Made by a program: the position numbers and the translations under genes. From positions 1 to 34,636 of the forward strand of contig CACZXN010000024.1 of NCBI GenBank assembly GCA_902785075.1: a DNA stretch of 34,636 nt. The letters run 5' to 3'. Each line of letters starts with the position of its first letter. Within the stretch, counting starts at the first letter, position 1. Origin of the DNA: an uncultured Bacteroidales bacterium (GTDB lineage Bacteria > Bacteroidota > Bacteroidia > Bacteroidales > Bacteroidaceae). Positions 547-34,473 of the stretch are shown in pieces. The notes beneath the pieces are model-generated. The model ran no database searches. It saw nothing but the letters and a program-made list of their open reading frames with translations, and was not told the DNA's origin.

Positions 547-574
547 CTCTAAACGCTAATCTCTCAACTCTGAA
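547..574. repeat. Heptad array in front of the dnaX promoter
   Basis: Four consecutive 7-mers, CTCTAAA, CGCTAAT, CTCTCAA and CTCTGAA, share the frame C-x-C-T-x-A-A/T. A C plus T-tract follows, then the -7 box begins 10 nt after the last heptad. The same layout, with nearly the same units, occurs at 27934-27961 in front of the CE1 esterase gene. Confidence 0.7.
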
Positions 575-584
575 CTTTTTTTTG

Positions 585-592
585 TAACTTTG
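585..592 (+). promoter_or_regulatory. dnaX promoter, -7 box TAACTTTG
   Basis: TAACTTTG matches the Bacteroidetes housekeeping sigma -7 consensus TAnnTTTG. The expected transcription start is near 598, giving a leader of about 20 nt before the ATG at 617. No TTTG is seen at -33. That position is occupied by the heptad array. Confidence 0.75.
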
Positions 593-616: not shown

Positions 617-2341
617 ATGGAAGGTTATATGGTGTCAGCACGCAAGTATCGTCCGATGACGTTCGACTCGGTAGTGGGGCAGGGTGCCTTGACTACGACG
701 CTGAAGAAGTCGATTCAGACGGGACATCTTGCGCATGCTTATCTGTTTTGCGGACCTCGTGGGGTAGGCAAGACCACTTGTGCCCGCATCTTTGCGAAGA
801 TTATCAACTGTATGTCGCCTACCGACGATGGTGAGGCTTGTGGTGTTTGTGAGTCGTGTATGGCTTTCAACGAGCAGCGTTCGCTGAATATCTATGAGTT
901 GGATGCGGCTTCGAATAATACGGTAGAAGATATAAGAAACCTGATTGAACAGACGCGCATTCCTCCTCAGATAGGTAAATATAAGGTGTTTATCATCGAC
1001 GAGGTGCACATGTTGTCGAATCAGGCGTTCAATGCCTTCCTGAAGACATTGGAGGAACCGCCTCACTATGTGATTTTCATTCTCGCTACGACAGAGAAGC
1101 ATAAGTTGCTGCCAACGATCCTGAGCCGTTGTCAGATATACGACTTCAATCGCATGACCATCAAGGACATTGTGGCTCATCTGCAGAAGGTGGCAGAAAA
1201 GGAGGGCGTGACAGCAGAGCCGGAGGCTTTGGCTGTGATTGCCGAGAAGGCCGATGGTGGTATGCGTGATGCGTTGTCGATATTCGACCAGGTCACTGCC
1301 TATTGCGACGGAAATATCACCTACAAGCAGACGATCGCTAACCTCAACGTGCTCGACTACGATTACTATTTCAAGTTGGTTGATTACTTCCTGGGAGGGC
1401 AGATTCCTGAAATCATGAGTACGTTCAACGAAATCATCAACAAGGGCTTCGAGGGCAATCATTTCATCAATGGGTTGAATGCTCACCTGAGGAACTTGCT
1501 GATGTGTAGGGACGAGAAGACGACCCAGTTGCTTGATACGAACGACAATGTGCGTCAGCGATACATTGAGCAGTCGAAAAAATGCAAGCCGCAATTCCTC
1601 TATCGTGCCATCAGAAAGTGTACGGATTGCGACATCAACTATAAGCTGAGCCAGAACAAACGGTTGTTGGTTGAGATTACGCTGATTGAGATAGCACAGT
1701 CAACTCAAGACGAAGGAGCTTCGGCGGGGCGTCGCCCTGCTAAGACATTAAAACCATTATTCAACAGAGCCGCAGTGAAGAAGTCAGTAGCTGCTGCTCA
1801 ACCTGCCGTTTCCACAACTGCAACTCCCACAACGGCAGCTCCCACAACTGCAGCTCCCACAACTGCAACTCCCACAACTGCAACTCCCACAACTGCAACT
1901 CCCACAACTGCAGCTCCCCAACAGGAAGCGCCCAACAAAAGTGCTCAACCTGCTCCGACCACAGCTCCTGTACCGGCTTTGCCAGCTGATGCTACGTTCG
2001 ACGAAGAGAACCTGACGCGAGCCATCAAAATCTTTTCGCAGACTTTGCCGCATGGAGGCATACGTGCCCAGTTGTTCCGTCTGACGCCACGACTGTTGGG
2101 TGCCGACTCGTTTGAAATCGAGGTCGATAATCCGGCCATTGAAGCACAGATGCGACAATACCTGCCACAACTGACGGAATATGTAAAGACTGCCCTGAAA
2201 ATGTCATCGGTACGAGCCGTCGTGAAAGTTGCGGAGTTCGACCCGACAATTGTGCTTACGAATGCACAATATTACGCAAAAATGAAAGAAAAGAATCCCG
2301 TTTTGGCAATTCTTGAGAAAGAAATGCAACTTCATCTCTAA
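617..2341 (+). CDS. dnaX: DNA polymerase III subunit gamma/tau
   Basis: Clamp-loader ATPase subunit of the replicative DNA polymerase. The N-terminal AAA+ module shows Walker A GPRGVGKT (residues 46-53), a zinc site with Cys65, Cys75, Cys78 and Cys81, Walker B VFIIDE (124-129) and the sensor/Arg-finger SRC motif (170-172). A Pro/Thr/Ala low-complexity linker (about 399-433) follows, encoded by seven 15-bp DNA repeats. The C-terminal part (about 450-574) is the diverged tau-like region. The start at 617 gives MEGYMVSARKYRP, matching the usual Bacteroidales beginning; a second in-frame ATG at 629 would cut this. I see no E. coli-type slippery A AAA AAG, so a frameshifted gamma form is not supported. 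It has its own promoter and is followed closely by the DivIC-like gene. Confidence 0.97.
   Translation: MEGYMVSARKYRPMTFDSVVGQGALTTTLKKSIQTGHLAHAYLFCGPRGVGKTTCARIFAKIINCMSPTDDGEACGVCESCMAFNEQRSLNIYELDAASNNTVEDIRNLIEQTRIPPQIGKYKVFIIDEVHMLSNQAFNAFLKTLEEPPHYVIFILATTEKHKLLPTILSRCQIYDFNRMTIKDIVAHLQKVAEKEGVTAEPEALAVIAEKADGGMRDALSIFDQVTAYCDGNITYKQTIANLNVLDYDYYFKLVDYFLGGQIPEIMSTFNEIINKGFEGNHFINGLNAHLRNLLMCRDEKTTQLLDTNDNVRQRYIEQSKKCKPQFLYRAIRKCTDCDINYKLSQNKRLLVEITLIEIAQSTQDEGASAGRRPAKTLKPLFNRAAVKKSVAAAQPAVSTTATPTTAAPTTAAPTTATPTTATPTTATPTTAAPQQEAPNKSAQPAPTTAPVPALPADATFDEENLTRAIKIFSQTLPHGGIRAQLFRLTPRLLGADSFEIEVDNPAIEAQMRQYLPQLTEYVKTALKMSSVRAVVKVAEFDPTIVLTNAQYYAKMKEKNPVLAILEKEMQLHL
1811..1915 (+). repeat. 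Seven 15-bp coding repeats in dnaX
   Basis: Seven tandem 15-bp units with consensus CCCACAACTGCAACT encode (S/P)TTA(T/A). Units differ at only one to three positions, so the array is young or homogenised. Because 15 is a multiple of three, copy number can change by slippage without a frameshift, altering only the linker between the ATPase and the tau-like region. Confidence 0.9.
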
Positions 2342-4440: not shown

Positions 4441-4523
4441 GGACACAATGTCCAATATACAAACACAGTATTTATGTGAATAAAGAAATTTAGTTAATTA
4501 ACACAAATCAATTTTAAGTGATT

Positions 4524-5762
4524 ATGGAAAATGAGAAATGGCACAACGATGCCAATGAAAAACGTCCTCAGCGTCCTCGTTTTACGCGAGTAGAGCGAGC
4601 TTACAGTGCAAATGGTAATTCAGGTGAACATGCATTCCGTCCACAAGGATTTGAGTCGCATGCAACGAATGGTGAACATCAAGGAAGCTATAACACACCT
4701 CGTCAGGGTGGTTATAATCGTCAGGGAAACGGTCAGGGCGGTTACAACAACAATCGTCAGGGTGGTTACAACAACAATCGCCAAGGTGGTTTCAACAATC
4801 GTCAGGGAAATGGTCAAGGCGGTTACAACAACAATCGCCAGGGTGGTTACAACAACAATCGCCAAGGCGGCTACAACAACAATCGCCAAGGCGGCTACAA
4901 CAACAATCGTCAAGGCGGTTACAATAAGCAGCGTCAGGGTGGTGGACAAGGACTGTTCCGCCAGCGTTCTGCCGATTACAATCCAAATGCAAAATACAGC
5001 TTAAAGAAGCAAATAGAATATAAGGAGTATCTTGACGACCCGAATGCTCCAATCCGTTTGAATAAGTTCCTTGCAAATGCAGGTGTATGCTCACGTCGTG
5101 AGGCAGACGAATTTATCCAGGCAGGAGTGATCAAGGTAAACGGTGAAATTGTTACAGAGCTGGGTACAAAAGTACAGCGCACAGATCAGGTTCACTTCCA
5201 TGACCAGTTGGTAAGTCTTGAGAAGAAAGTTTATGTGTTGCTGAACAAACCAAAGGATTATGTCACAACAGCCGATGATCCTCAGGCACGTAAGACCGTG
5301 ATGGATCTTGTAAAGAACTGTTGCCGCGAACGAATCTATCCAGTAGGACGACTCGACCGCAACACAACAGGTGTACTGCTCTTCACCAACGATGGAGAAC
5401 TGGCTTCGAAGCTGACACATCCAAAGTTCTTCAAGAAGAAAATCTATCATGTCTATCTCGATAAGAATTGCGCAGCAGCCGACTTGCAGAAAATAGCAGA
5501 GGGTATCGAACTCGAAGACGGTCCAATCCATGCAGATGCTATCAGCTACGCAAGCGATACTGACCGCAAGCAAATCGGTATTGAGATTCACTCAGGAAAG
5601 AACCGTATCGTTCGTCGTATCTTTGAAGCTCTCGGCTACAGAGTCATCAAACTCGACCGAGTTGTCTTTGCCGGATTGACGAAGAAAGGACTCAAGCGTG
5701 GAGATTGGCGATTCCTCACAGAGCAGGAAGTTGCGATGCTTCACATGAATACACAAGACTAA
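4524..5762 (+). CDS. Ribosomal large-subunit pseudouridine synthase, RluB/RsuA type, with repeat arm
   Basis: Converts a specific uridine of rRNA to pseudouridine. The S4 RNA-binding domain (about residues 176-225, starting IRLNKFLANAGVCSRREAD) and the RsuA-type catalytic domain follow a 140-residue low-complexity arm. GRLDRNTTG carries the catalytic Asp (Asp278 from this start), and later SGKNRIVRRIFEALGY is the conserved family block. The arm (about 60-140) is made of GGYNNNRQ units. A GTG at 4518 lies two codons upstream in frame, but the ATG at 4524 is the more natural start. The exact target uridine cannot be told from sequence; RluB (23S 2605) or RluE/RluF-like activities are possible. 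asnS begins 40 nt downstream. Confidence 0.92.
   Translation: MENEKWHNDANEKRPQRPRFTRVERAYSANGNSGEHAFRPQGFESHATNGEHQGSYNTPRQGGYNRQGNGQGGYNNNRQGGYNNNRQGGFNNRQGNGQGGYNNNRQGGYNNNRQGGYNNNRQGGYNNNRQGGYNKQRQGGGQGLFRQRSADYNPNAKYSLKKQIEYKEYLDDPNAPIRLNKFLANAGVCSRREADEFIQAGVIKVNGEIVTELGTKVQRTDQVHFHDQLVSLEKKVYVLLNKPKDYVTTADDPQARKTVMDLVKNCCRERIYPVGRLDRNTTGVLLFTNDGELASKLTHPKFFKKKIYHVYLDKNCAAADLQKIAEGIELEDGPIHADAISYASDTDRKQIGIEIHSGKNRIVRRIFEALGYRVIKLDRVVFAGLTKKGLKRGDWRFLTEQEVAMLHMNTQD
4701..4943 (+). repeat. 24-bp coding repeats (GGYNNNRQ) in the pseudouridine synthase arm
   Basis: Six exact GGYNNNRQ octapeptides plus shortened or altered copies (GGFNNRQGNGQ, GGYNKQRQ) are encoded by 24-bp near-identical DNA units. 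Third-position differences such as CGT/CGC and GGT/GGC show some divergence. The repeat keeps long open frames on the other strand and other frames, which are shadows. Confidence 0.9.
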
Positions 5763-7300: not shown

Positions 7301-8149
7301 TTAGCCGTTAGTCGTAACAATCTTGCAATTGGCTGGCTGGCGGATGTTTTCATCAAGGATTATCTCACCGATACTGTCAGCTTTGATGCTACCTGTCAGC
7401 GGATTCTTTACACTCACGATATGCCCCTTTATGTCAGCAGTTACTTCGCTGTATTCGAAGGCAAGGTCGGCATCTTCACCCATCGTGCAATCCTCCATTT
7501 GTAGGTCGTGTGCGTAACAGAGAGGTTGGGTACCAAGAACGTGACAACGAATCAGGCGCAGATTCTTACTATGCCATCCTAAGTATTCGCCATTGATTGT
7601 TGAGTCGTACACAGTGACGTTCTCTGTATTCCAAAAGGCATCTTTGGTATTGAGTGTTGAGTTGCGAATCACGATGTTACGGCTGTATTGGAACGAATAA
7701 TTACCTTGTAAAGTCAGATGATCAATCTCGATGTCTTCACAGTGCATCATGATGTAGTCAGCATGCTCTGCATTCACATCCTTCAGTTGGATATCCTTGC
7801 AGTGCCACAAGGTTTCTTGAGCATTGGGAAGATTTACGTTGCGGAGTTTCAGGTGTTCCATATCGCGGAACATCTTCGGAGCTTCAACGAGTGTATCGCT
7901 CATTTCTAGGTGGCGTGAGTACCACAAAGCAGCACGTGCTCCTTCTGTGAATAGGCAGTTGCTAATGATAAAGTGGTCATTGTGCCAGAAAGGGTATTTA
8001 CCTTCGAAACGGCAATGCTCAGCTGTTATGTCTTTGCATTCCTTAAGTGCCGACTCTCCTGCATGAATTGTCACGTCAATCAGTTGGAGATGATGTGAGG
8101 CAAACAAAGGCCGTTCTCCACCGAATTCATTGTTCTTTATAGTTGTCAT
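7301..8149 (-). CDS. DUF3737 family right-handed beta-helix protein
   Basis: A 282-residue cytoplasmic protein without a signal peptide or membrane segments. Its whole length is made of short beta-helix rungs with recurring patterns of the type W(H/N/Y)-x-(K/E)-N/D-hydrophobic (YPFWHNDHFIISNC, TLWHCKDIQLKDV, DAFWNTENVTVYDS, YLGWHSKNLRLIRC), the known look of DUF3737. The biochemical role of the family is unknown; pentapeptide/pectate-lyase-like folds are a loose structural comparison only. The start codon directly touches the heptad array 8150-8261, leaving no ordinary ribosome-binding region. It lies downstream of the MATE gene on the same strand. Confidence 0.88.
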   Translation of the reverse strand: MTTIKNNEFGGERPLFASHHLQLIDVTIHAGESALKECKDITAEHCRFEGKYPFWHNDHFIISNCLFTEGARAALWYSRHLEMSDTLVEAPKMFRDMEHLKLRNVNLPNAQETLWHCKDIQLKDVNAEHADYIMMHCEDIEIDHLTLQGNYSFQYSRNIVIRNSTLNTKDAFWNTENVTVYDSTINGEYLGWHSKNLRLIRCHVLGTQPLCYAHDLQMEDCTMGEDADLAFEYSEVTADIKGHIVSVKNPLTGSIKADSIGEIILDENIRQPANCKIVTTNG

Positions 8150-8275
8150 AGTTTATAGTTTACCGTTTACCGTTTACCGTTTACAGTTTACCGTTTATAG
8201 TTTACCGTTTATAGTTTACCGTTTACAGTTTACCGTTTACAGTTTATAGTTTATAGTTTACAGATGAAAGTTGAT
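8150..8275. repeat. Sixteen-unit heptad array [A/C]GTTTA[C/T]
   Basis: Sixteen uninterrupted 7-mers, each matching [A/C]GTTTA[C/T], fill 8150-8261. Two decayed units follow (AGATGAA, AGTTGAT). Only the two end positions of the heptad vary; the GTTTA core is invariant. The array starts at the base next to the DUF3737 start codon, so on the minus strand it is the gene's immediate 5' leader, reading as RTAAACK-type units. Confidence 0.92.
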
Positions 8276-8296: not shown

Positions 8297-8331
8297 TTAG
8301 CTCTTAGTTCCTAGTTCTTAGTTCCTACTCC
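8297..8331. repeat. Five-unit heptad array, TTAGTTC type
   Basis: TTAGCTC, TTAGTTC, CTAGTTC, TTAGTTC and CTACTCC follow in strict 7-nt phase. The last unit merges into the GC-rich repeat at 8326-8392. The unit differs from the neighbouring array (8150-8275) but the period is the same. Confidence 0.7.
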
Positions 8332-15544: not shown

Positions 15545-15572
15545 ACACTCCATACTCCATACTCCAATCCAA
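15545..15572. repeat. Heptad array in the rho leader
   Basis: ACACTCC, ATACTCC, ATACTCC and AATCCAA follow in 7-nt phase. The array lies between the rho promoter and start codon, so it is transcribed into the rho mRNA leader. Three units are strong and the fourth is decayed. Confidence 0.6.
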
Positions 15573-16438: not shown

Positions 16439-16501
16439 TTCCAAGCCTTTGAATATATATTCCAAGCCTTTGAATATATGTTCCGAGCCTTTGAATAGAG
16501 A
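16439..16501. repeat. Three 21-bp tandem repeats
   Basis: Units start at 16439, 16460 and 16481 with the common core TTCC(A/G)AGCCTTTGAATA. The first two differ only in the last base; the third has more changes at its end. The unit is 21 bp, three times seven, matching the period of the heptad arrays elsewhere in the window. Confidence 0.85.
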
Positions 16502-25995: not shown

Positions 25996-26023
25996 AACTT
26001 TCAACTCTCAACTTTCAACTCTT
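25996..26023. repeat. Heptad array between the Na/Pi transporter and GH2 genes
   Basis: AACTTTC, AACTCTC, AACTTTC and AACTCTT follow in perfect 7-nt phase and end at the base before the transporter's stop codon (26024-26026). The units alternate between two forms. There is no -7 box in the rest of the gap, so this array is not tied to a recognisable promoter. Confidence 0.8.
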
Positions 26024-27933: not shown

Positions 27934-27961
27934 CTCTCAACACTAAACTCTCAACTCTAAA
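27934..27961. repeat. Heptad array in front of the CE1 esterase promoter
   Basis: CTCTCAA, CACTAAA, CTCTCAA and CTCTAAA follow in perfect 7-nt phase. C, T7, C and G then lead to the -7 box, which begins 10 nt after the array. Unit sequences and spacing match the dnaX arrangement at 547-592. Confidence 0.8.
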
Positions 27962-27971
27962 CTTTTTTTCG

Positions 27972-27979
27972 TACCTTTG
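27972..27979 (+). promoter_or_regulatory. Promoter of the CE1 esterase, -7 box TACCTTTG
   Basis: An exact TAnnTTTG box, with a predicted start near 27985 and a leader of about 24 nt. No TTTG at -33; the heptad array covers that position. Confidence 0.7.
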
Positions 27980-28008: not shown

Positions 28009-29178
28009 ATGAGAACCTTTTTACTCACATTCGTCTTATGTGCCATTAGTTGCACGTTTATTTCTGCACAGGGATTCCGTCGAGAGAACATGCCCGAAGG
28101 GTCCTACTCGCCAGTGACAAATATCAACCGTAACGGCTATCCCCGTGTGTTGGCCGACAACAGCGTCGTGTTCCGTGTGAATGCCCCTCAGGCACAGCAT
28201 GTGCAGATTGACCTTGGTGGTACCAAATACGACATGCAGAAAGGGGAGGGTGGTACTTGGATAGTGACCACGAAGCCCCAAGTGCCTGGATTCCACTACT
28301 ATTCACTTGTTGTCGATGGAGTGTCTGTTTCTGATCCTGCCAGTCAGACGTTCTATGGTTGCAGTCGTTGGTCGAGTGCCATTGAAATCAAAGAAACAGG
28401 TATGGACGACTTCGAGGTTCAGAATGTGCCACACGGACAGGTACGAACCGTCTATTACTATAGTAAAGTCGAAGAGGCATGGCGTCCGTTGATGGTCTAT
28501 ACTCCTGCCGACTACGATACGAACCGTGAACGTAACTATCCTGTTGTCTATATCCAGCATGGAGGAGGTGAGGACCATCGAGGATGGATGGAACAGGGGC
28601 GTACAGCTCAGATCATGGACAACCTCATTGCTCAGGGGAAGGCCGTCCCTATGATTGTGGTGAGTGCCAATAGTAATGTGCAGAGCCGCAATGGTGGTTT
28701 TGGTGGAGGATATAGCTGGGAAGGTATGCAGACGTTTCGCTCAGAAATCATCGAGAATGTCATCCCCTTTGTCGAGAAGACTTATCGTGTGAAGAAAGAC
28801 CGTAGGAGTCGTGCCATGTGTGGCCTCTCGATGGGTGGAGGTCAGTCCTTCTATATCGGTCTGCGCGACCCAGAGGTGTTTGCCAACGTAGGCGTGTTCT
28901 CTACGGGTATGTTTGGCGGTATTCAGGGGGCTTCGAACTTCGACCTCGAGAAAGAAGTGCCTGGCATACTGACGGCTACACAGAAATTCAATCAGCAGTT
29001 CGATGTGTTCTTCCTCAGTTGTGGAGAACAAGACCCTCGAATACAGCACACGCGTAATGTCGTGAAGAAGATGCGTGACGGCAAAGTGGAAGTCCGTTTC
29101 AATTCCTACCCAGGCGATCATGAGTGGCAAGTGTGGCGCAAGTCGTTACATGAGTTTGCACAATACCTGTTCAAATAA
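28009..29178 (+). CDS. Secreted CE1-type carbohydrate esterase with N-terminal Ig-like (CBM48/E-set) domain
   Basis: Signal peptide 1-20 (MRTFLLTFVLCAISCTFISA). The E-set/CBM48-like domain (about 45-130, VFRVNAPQAQHVQIDLGG) precedes an alpha/beta-hydrolase of the esterase D/feruloyl esterase group. The nucleophile elbow is GLSMGG with Ser274, the acid is probably Asp342 in CGEQDPR, and the His is 371 in PGDHEW. YIQHGGGED (181-189) forms the oxyanion region. Such two-domain enzymes remove feruloyl or acetyl groups from plant polysaccharides. It has no C-terminal sorting signal, so it is probably periplasmic. It heads a plus-strand run with DUF1294 and GH27. Confidence 0.92.
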   Translation: MRTFLLTFVLCAISCTFISAQGFRRENMPEGSYSPVTNINRNGYPRVLADNSVVFRVNAPQAQHVQIDLGGTKYDMQKGEGGTWIVTTKPQVPGFHYYSLVVDGVSVSDPASQTFYGCSRWSSAIEIKETGMDDFEVQNVPHGQVRTVYYYSKVEEAWRPLMVYTPADYDTNRERNYPVVYIQHGGGEDHRGWMEQGRTAQIMDNLIAQGKAVPMIVVSANSNVQSRNGGFGGGYSWEGMQTFRSEIIENVIPFVEKTYRVKKDRRSRAMCGLSMGGGQSFYIGLRDPEVFANVGVFSTGMFGGIQGASNFDLEKEVPGILTATQKFNQQFDVFFLSCGEQDPRIQHTRNVVKKMRDGKVEVRFNSYPGDHEWQVWRKSLHEFAQYLFK

Positions 29179-31245: not shown

Positions 31246-34254
<3,009 letters not shown>

Positions 34255-34283: not shown

Positions 34284-34314
34284 CAAAGGTAATAAATAAT
34301 TGATAATTGACAAT
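34284..34314 (-). promoter_or_regulatory. Promoter of the second GH2 gene
   Basis: On the minus strand ATTG (34314-34311) and TACCTTTG (34291-34284) are 19 nt apart, an exact -7 with a near-consensus -33. The start should be near 34277, giving a short leader of about 23 nt. The -33 falls inside the heptad array 34298-34325. Confidence 0.7.
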
Positions 34315-34325
34315 TGGGAATTGAG
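34298..34325. repeat. Heptad array in front of the second GH2 promoter
   Basis: AATTGAT, AATTGAC, AATTGGG and AATTGAG follow in perfect 7-nt phase with an invariant AATTG core. Read on the minus strand, four heptads precede the -7 box by 6 nt, the same general layout as at dnaX and the CE1 esterase. Confidence 0.75.
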
Positions 34326-34473
34326 AAATAATGACAAATGTAGTGAAAAAAAGTCAAAAGTCTTAGATAGTTGATTGTTAGTAGCTTCAAGTATTGGGTT
34401 TCTGGGTTGAAGCCTTCGGTGTGTATCTTGAACTGCGCAATGTGCTCAAAGGCCTGGTAGGAAAAAAGTGTGA

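Follow-up and report, generated by a model that had tools for sequence, protein, structure and literature searches.

Heptanucleotide arrays in register with the -7 box of candidate promoters in an uncultured Bacteroidales bacterium and its relatives

Promoters of sigma-ABfr, the primary sigma factor of Bacteroidota, carry a -7 TAnnTTTG box and a -33 TTTG element, and the accessible part of the thetaiotaomicron sigma-ABfr promoter description mentions no repeat. According to the accessible sections of 2 reports on repeats, heptanucleotides predominate among long simple repeats in the majority of genomes surveyed, with slippage being the proposed cause (Mrazek 2007, as cited in PMC4679880), TAACTGA arrays lie mostly within several nucleotides of start codons (PMC4679880), and the G-rich heptads of Xanthomonas and Nostoc are under-represented between divergent genes (PMC4692102). 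Among the titles listed in a literature search, with most subscription journals outside its scope, there was no paper on heptad arrays at Bacteroidota promoters; parts of PMC6749651 and PMC7366714 were also drawn on.

Here, we describe heptad arrays that lie next to candidate promoters of an uncultured Bacteroidales bacterium. The window, i.e., the whole 34,636-nucleotide stretch of DNA that was analyzed, is one contig of a 2.9-Mb, 105-contig assembly that is 85.5% complete (G000). Named full-length relatives of the dnaX product are Prevotella-like, with 57% identity or less (records near the window's own genome possibly lay outside the search), and the host organism is probably Prevotella-like as well. 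Together with 60 further stretches of the same genome (1.19 Mb), the window makes up a sample of 1.23 Mb. Sampled stretches were first contigs and long contigs of the relative G004 rather than random draws, a few loci being near-duplicates, and boxes, gene starts and promoters were predicted by simple rules. At a lag score of at least 14, period 7 led the intergenic tandem arrays in the 1.23 Mb (47 intergenic and 9 coding), ahead of periods 8 (17 and 6), 11 (16 and 1), 9 (11 and 9) and 15 (5 and 6); periods 4, 5, 6, 10, 12 and 13 yielded 0 or 1 intergenic array each, and the arrays of period 14 (30 intergenic and 7 coding) were re-detected heptads. Thus, heptads are a general trait of this genome, in which tandem 7-nt units exceed those of other periods and are mainly intergenic, as expected of heptanucleotide simple sequence repeats.

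Repeats of other kinds were also encountered. Tandem repeats of 21 bp, mostly outside predicted genes, occur in the window (16439-16497) and in 9 of the sampled stretches (L042, L043, L049, L051, L057, L073, L074, L075 and L083), with some of the units being self-complementary, e.g., TGTTGCAGGTCGTGCAACCTA and GTTTCATAGTACGAAACATAC. An AAGTTAT array with near-identical flanks is present at 3 loci (L031, 54-79; L078, 779-797; L081, 54-79), in 2 cases near the contig start, and may belong to a repeated mobile element. Intragenic tandem repeats of the window comprise 15-bp units within dnaX (1812-1922) and 24-bp units (4716-4943) within the open reading frame (ORF) at 4518-5762. No Rfam match at gathering scores was obtained within the window.

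Upstream of dnaX (617-2341, plus strand; DNA polymerase III gamma/tau, Pfam DNA_pol3_delta2 and DNAX_ATPase_lid), four heptads, CTCTAAA, CGCTAAT, CTCTCAA and CTCTGAA (547-574; lag-7 identity 0.72), are followed by a linker that reads C + T8 + G (575-584) and by the candidate -7 box TAACTTTG (585-592). An equivalent arrangement precedes the esterase gene (28009-29178, plus strand; Pfam Esterase PF00756, labeled CE1 in an earlier, sequence-only reading of this DNA) and consists of the units CTCTCAA, CACTAAA, CTCTCAA and CTCTAAA (27934-27961; lag-7 identity 0.76), the linker C + T7 + CG (27962-27971) and the candidate box TACCTTTG (27972-27979). Reading both loci confirmed that four heptads, C plus a T-tract and TAnCTTTG succeed one another at the 2 promoters, as had been claimed, with array end and box being separated by 10 nt in each case. 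The GH2 beta-galactosidase-like gene (31246-34254, minus strand; assigned by Pfam) has, also as claimed, an array of another sequence, CAATTCC, CAATTGT, CAATTAT and CAATTAT (about 34296-34327, minus strand; lag-7 identity 0.80), the last AATT core of which lies 6 nt upstream of the candidate box TACCTTTG (34284-34291). A second candidate box on the same strand, TACATTTG (34335-34342), is located upstream and shows weaker heptad periodicity (0.64).

Lag-7 identity was computed over positions -38 to -7, counted from the first T of the box as 0. When these promoter regions are modeled as an order-1 Markov chain, the values for dnaX, esterase and GH2 have probabilities of 1.1e-4, 3.5e-5 and 5e-6 per promoter, respectively, and the 3 stand out among the 9 box-bearing upstream regions of the window, the box at 34335-34342 ranking fourth. 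All 3 promoters possess the -7 TAnnTTTG of sigma-ABfr-type promoters but not the -33 TTTG, with no TTTG at -28 to -17. The lack of the latter at dnaX and esterase, already pointed out in the sequence-only reading, therefore holds, yet such absence is common among other window boxes: TTTG is found in only 1 of the 5 other box regions with low lag-7 identity, so that its absence at the 3 promoters is not special on its own. Measured from the AACT/AATT core, the offset to the box is 8 at dnaX and esterase and 6 at GH2, which corresponds to 2 registers 2 nt apart; the difference between gaps of 10 and 6 nt is partly apparent, because it depends on where the unit end is drawn. Heptad arrays without an adjacent canonical TAnnTTTG box occur in the window too. 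These include about 16 GTTTACM-type heptads that extend as far as the start codon of an ORF on the minus strand (8148-8260) and are not promoter-locked, an AACTTTC/AACTCTC array between 2 minus-strand genes (25996-26020), and arrays at 8297-8324 and 15547-15566, which have no canonical box nearby.

The association between arrays and the -7 box extends to the sampled DNA of the same genome and 3 relatives (G000, G004, G007 and G012; 2.15 Mb), where 37 of 153 intergenic heptad arrays have a box within 12 nt of the array end on either side, whereas placing arrays at random within these intergenic intervals gave 7.3 (SD 2.6), with a maximum of 17 in 1,000 placements. Farther away, 3 boxes were counted at 20-32 nt and 2 at 33-45 nt versus 7.4 and 7.3 expected. 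Near arrays of other periods in the same 4 genomes, boxes were rare (period 8, 2/29; period 9, 0/24; period 11, 2/22; periods 5, 6, 10 and 12 together, 0/13), except for period 14 (24/97), which re-detects heptads. When the 86 arrays in the 1.23 Mb were read both ways, TAnnTTTG was found 0 to 13 nt after the array end 19 times in 172 oriented arrays, as compared to 1 match with the motif reversed and 0 and 1 with 2 scrambled versions. Boxes at 4-7 nt numbered 12 in G000, 10 in G007, 3 in G012 and 2 in G004; G009, with few arrays in its 200-kb sample, had none and showed no peak.

The sequence-only reading had suggested that the array belongs to the promoter, e.g., as an upstream element read by sigma or a bending or phasing signal, and is not random low complexity, and that a peak of array-to-box distances would support this idea. 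Such a peak is present in the sampled DNA of this genome and its 3 relatives. Because the distances are peaked, with specificity for period 7 and for 14 as its multiple, and keep a register, the position of the arrays supports a promoter role; the suggestion does not carry over to G009 or to most arrays, since 116 of the 153 are away from a canonical box, and heptads are thus not solely promoter parts. Random low complexity is ruled out by the register and by the other-period and reversed-pattern controls. With a slightly different box window, box-bearing arrays made up 18/29 of those between divergent genes, 10/98 of those between co-directional genes and 4/12 of those between convergent genes. 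Judged by eye from their translations, the genes downstream of array promoters resemble housekeeping genes without a common function, and tRNAs. As side observations, heptad-array promoters appear by eye to directly precede apparent tRNA genes at 2 loci (L076, minus strand, 3531; L252, minus strand, 7168), and base composition differs by context: box-less co-directional arrays of the 4 genomes, read with the flanking genes, mostly have more G than C (55 to 30), and box-linked arrays read toward the box mostly have more C than G (22 to 13).

The register is evident from several tallies. Removal of redundancy reduced 51 box-linked arrays to 35, and in these, the one of the seven columns that is richest in T, with the last unit excluded, lies at -14 in 21 arrays, at -13 in 8, at -15 in 4 and at -18 in 2. 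In 1.75 Mb, three AATT cores with 3-nt spacers gave 17 matches, and the distance to the box is 6, 13, 20 or 34 nt in every case. In whole-genome searches, the triple AATT pattern was matched in 16 of the 17 genomes of the genus, and among the matches listed for G001-G007, 82 of 101 boxes are at offset 6 modulo 7, a tally that omits 4 boxes overlapping another listed box (2 of the 4 being at 6 modulo 7). The corresponding AACT pattern was matched in 7 of the 17 genomes, with 41 of 70 boxes at 6 modulo 7 and 12 of 70 at 1 modulo 7. The esterase box is among these AACT boxes, at offset 8 and hence in the second register; for dnaX, the array of which is too imperfect for the pattern, offset 8 was established by reading. 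A single 10-nt gap therefore does not describe the arrays in general: there are at least 2 registers, the length of the T-tract varies, and we replaced the universal gap with the 2 registers.

Arrays in register recur in other genera, 4 genomes of which were searched (G030, G138, G282 and G155), with AATT being tallied in G030 and G138. Offset 6 modulo 7 accounts for 18 of 19 AACT boxes in G030 and for 42 of 55 AATT boxes in G138, and the AATT boxes of G030 are divided between offset 6 modulo 7 (16/36) and offset 8 (11/36). Compared to its reversed control, the AACT pattern is in excess in G030 (32:3) and shows no excess in G138 (1:1), G282 (2:1) or G155 (6:7). When generalized to three AWYT cores at offset 6, the pattern yields 1 to 43 matches per genome in all 17 members of the genus, versus 0 or 1 per genome for its reversed form, and at least 1 match in 117 of the 251 family genomes drawn. 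Strong carriers are found in g1, g6, g11, g13, g15 and g30, alongside relatives without any match, and even within the genus g11 the occurrence is patchy, with 42 matches in G138 and 0 in G026.

Pairs of divergent TAnnTTTG boxes display a spacing of their own. The outer distances of 83 pairs (G000, G004, G007, G009 and G012) cluster, mostly at 40, 59-60, 89-90 and 99-101 bp, and the strongest of 12 periods tried is 10.2-10.4 (nR2 about 26), with none at 7; it thus appears that divergent promoters stay on the same face of the helix. A single array with the palindromic AATT core can serve 2 divergent boxes, in which case the match on one strand starts 28 nt from that on the other and the outer spacing is 60 bp (shared arrays at G001 C59; G004 C39 and C41; G007 C38; G010 C26; G138 C1 and C4). 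Pairs with at least 1 AACT array span 100 bp (G006 C18; G007 C8, C58 and C65).

To find out what the arrays may stand in for, we compared them with ordinary candidate promoters from the samples of the genus, in 85 of 305 of which TTTG starts at -24 (55) or -23 (30). Within -27 to -17, TTTG is found in 1 of 35 array promoters versus 90 of 275 others (p = 5e-5), a deficit that is partly built in, because a repeat of other words is hardly able to contain TTTG. Over -38 to -7, the G+C profile of 46 array promoters, pooled with the second register of dnaX and esterase not separated out, correlates with that of 265 non-array promoters at r = 0.787 at zero shift. Off register, the correlation falls to 0.42 and 0.33 at shifts of -1 and +1 and is negative at -4 and +4, and phase scrambles gave a mean of 0.41 and a maximum of 0.756, with 0 of 2,000 reaching the observed value. 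The two profiles agree well at -33, -20 and -13 but poorly at -27. The profile of ordinary promoters is not itself 7-periodic (autocorrelation of 0.05 at lag 7). The view that promoters in general share a heptad periodicity was accordingly rejected, lag-7 identity being 0.326 versus 0.315 at lag 8 once arrays were dropped. Among the 5 core positions, AWYT is enriched in the 305 ordinary promoters at -17 only (31 versus a mean of 13.3 per position), the counts at the others being 19 at -10, 4 at -24, 9 at -31 and 16 at -38. The arrays are bounded: in 32 of 35, the left edge is at or inside -40, and lengths above 40 bp are seen in 2 of the 37 arrays linked to a box versus 30 of the 116 others (p = 0.009). 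Stronger conservation of cores than of spacers within arrays was considered and dropped, adjacent-unit identity being similar in both kinds of columns (0.87-0.95).

Collectively, we favor, with a probability of about 0.47 and hence short of even odds, the reading that, at box-linked arrays, a simple 7-bp repeat that arose by slippage and was kept where it fell in register has rebuilt the upstream half of an ordinary primary-sigma (TAnnTTTG) promoter. The arrays would be generated by the bias toward 7-nt slippage that has been proposed for bacteria, and about 4 to 5 units would fill the region from -38 to -7. In the main register, this would bring A/T-rich cores near -38, -31, -24, -17 and -10, with the G/C-bearing spacers falling near -34, -27, -20 and -13, and ordinary promoters of the same genomes tolerate G/C around -33, -20 and -13 too, albeit not at -27. 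Arrays in register beside a -7 box may supply a working spacer, -33 and proximal upstream region without TTTG, and those retained could later be replaced by other words. RNA polymerase would read the array region, the array would take over the function of the -33 element, and selection would act in its retention.

Orthologous promoters reveal how freely the words change. For the 3 window genes, 31 orthologous loci were read, 18 of which have a box (19 boxes in total). For dnaX, 11 of 15 loci in the genus have one (TAnnTTTG or TAnCTTCG), 1 of the 4 box-less loci being cut by a contig end; arrays of 3 different words are present in G000 (CTCTMAA), G013 (TCAATGK) and G006 (CATAACT), 2 box loci without an array have TTTG at -23, and 6 have neither. 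The 7 esterase loci include arrays in G000, G013 (ACATTNT, the weakest, 0.64) and G009 (GCATCCT), 1 box without an array but with TTTG at -28, and 3 loci without a box. Among the 9 GH2 loci, only G000 has an array; TTTG is found at -25 in G009 and at -24 in G013, and 6 loci are without a box. Overall, TTTG is present in 0 of 8 orthologous boxes with lag-7 identity of at least 0.64 (3 or 4 of the 8 being the window's own) versus 5 of 11 below this value, the other 6 of these 11 array-less boxes also lacking it. A sequence-conserved binding site is ruled out, since orthologous dnaX and esterase promoters differ in array word. Across arrays, 5.3% of pairs within a genome have identical units versus 2.0% between genomes (a difference given without a significance test) and 0.4% for letter-shuffled units. 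The leading words among the matches listed are AACTCCT in G007, AACTCTA in G006 and AATTGTC in G003, and several different words are found at promoters within one genome.

The most serious rival is neutral slippage seeded by the promoter itself. The last unit, with its A/T-rich bases and the T-tract by the -7 box, would alone be functional and the upstream units would be passive copies, so that the register would be inherited from the seed, because it is the functional last unit that is copied upstream. This account draws on the reported abundance of heptanucleotides as the most common long repeats and on the polymerase slippage proposed for them (Mrazek 2007 in PMC4679880; PMC4692102; accessible parts of both), and is in line with unit identity being even across columns, with a single core position (-17) being enriched in ordinary promoters and with the patchy occurrence. 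However, growth of a repeat within the -33 to -7 interval would be expected to disturb promoter spacing and hence to be depleted, yet it is precisely there that arrays are enriched, being scarce 20-45 nt away. Furthermore, array length is bounded near -38, the G+C profile fit spans -38 to -7 and thus reaches beyond the last unit, and local seeding does not predict the same words at many promoters of one genome. We deem the seeded origin possible, though on the unlikely side. With similar reservation, we consider a stronger version of a promoter role, namely, a promoter class set by period and register rather than by fixed sequence, in which many words serve, each genome having characteristic ones, and which is possibly read by a heptad-binding partner of RNA polymerase at housekeeping genes and tRNAs of Prevotella-like Bacteroidaceae; at present, such a class appears doubtful.

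Alternatively, an oligomerizing DNA-binding protein, akin to the omega repressor on 7-bp parS heptads, might cover the array and control or help the promoter, with the words co-evolving with it. Contiguous 7-bp units that overlap promoters, four being needed for full effect, reproduce the omega/parS geometry (PMC9499535, accessible part), and the clustering of words by genome (5.3% versus 2.0%, no significance test) points in the same direction. On the other hand, one genome carries several words at its promoters and the downstream genes, judged by eye, form no obvious regulon. Searches for the omega family PF07764 matched 0 of 17 genomes but equally 0 of 14 control genomes, which is no sign of its absence. 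We regard this explanation as improbable. Slightly less probable still is a DNA-shape element, in which 7-bp phasing would provide a path or flexibility that positions the polymerase independently of base contacts: A/T tracts that recur about every 10 bp upstream of -34 in candidate promoters (by eye) and divergent boxes at multiples of about 10.3 bp would suit it, but the DNA helical repeat is about 10.5 bp, bends from successive heptads should largely cancel because 7 bp differs from that repeat, and the arrays mostly stop near -38.

If arrays indeed replace the -33 half, as in the reading that we favor, promoters could be built from a slippage-prone repeat, the sequence of which is free and the register fixed. 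This would open a fast mutational route to promoters and provide a natural experiment on the requirements of the polymerase from -38 to -7. Heptanucleotide repeats, which are usually discussed in terms of slippage or of phase-variation switches, would then also be able to form part of constitutive promoters, and the register rule could aid promoter annotation in this group.

Among known systems, parS of omega (ParB of pSM19035) likewise consists of contiguous 7-bp repeats that overlap promoters, at least four being needed for full activity (PMC9499535, as far as accessible), whereas the window units and the listed units do not match its WATCACW consensus and comprise several different words. 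The intergenic heptanucleotide repeats represented by TAACTGA (PMC4679880) and GGGAATC (PMC4692102) are, in the accessible parts of these reports, similarly tandem, 7 nt in length, mostly intergenic and made of genome-characteristic words. Neither the TAACTGA unit nor its position at start codons (MacGregor 2015) is matched by the arrays described here, judging from the window units and the listed units, and, unlike the G-rich heptads, box-linked arrays are in register with the -7 box and frequent between divergent genes (18/29). With sigma-ABfr promoters, they share the -7 box and the placement before genes; unlike these promoters, they nearly always lack the -33 TTTG (found in 1/35) and carry phased heptads.
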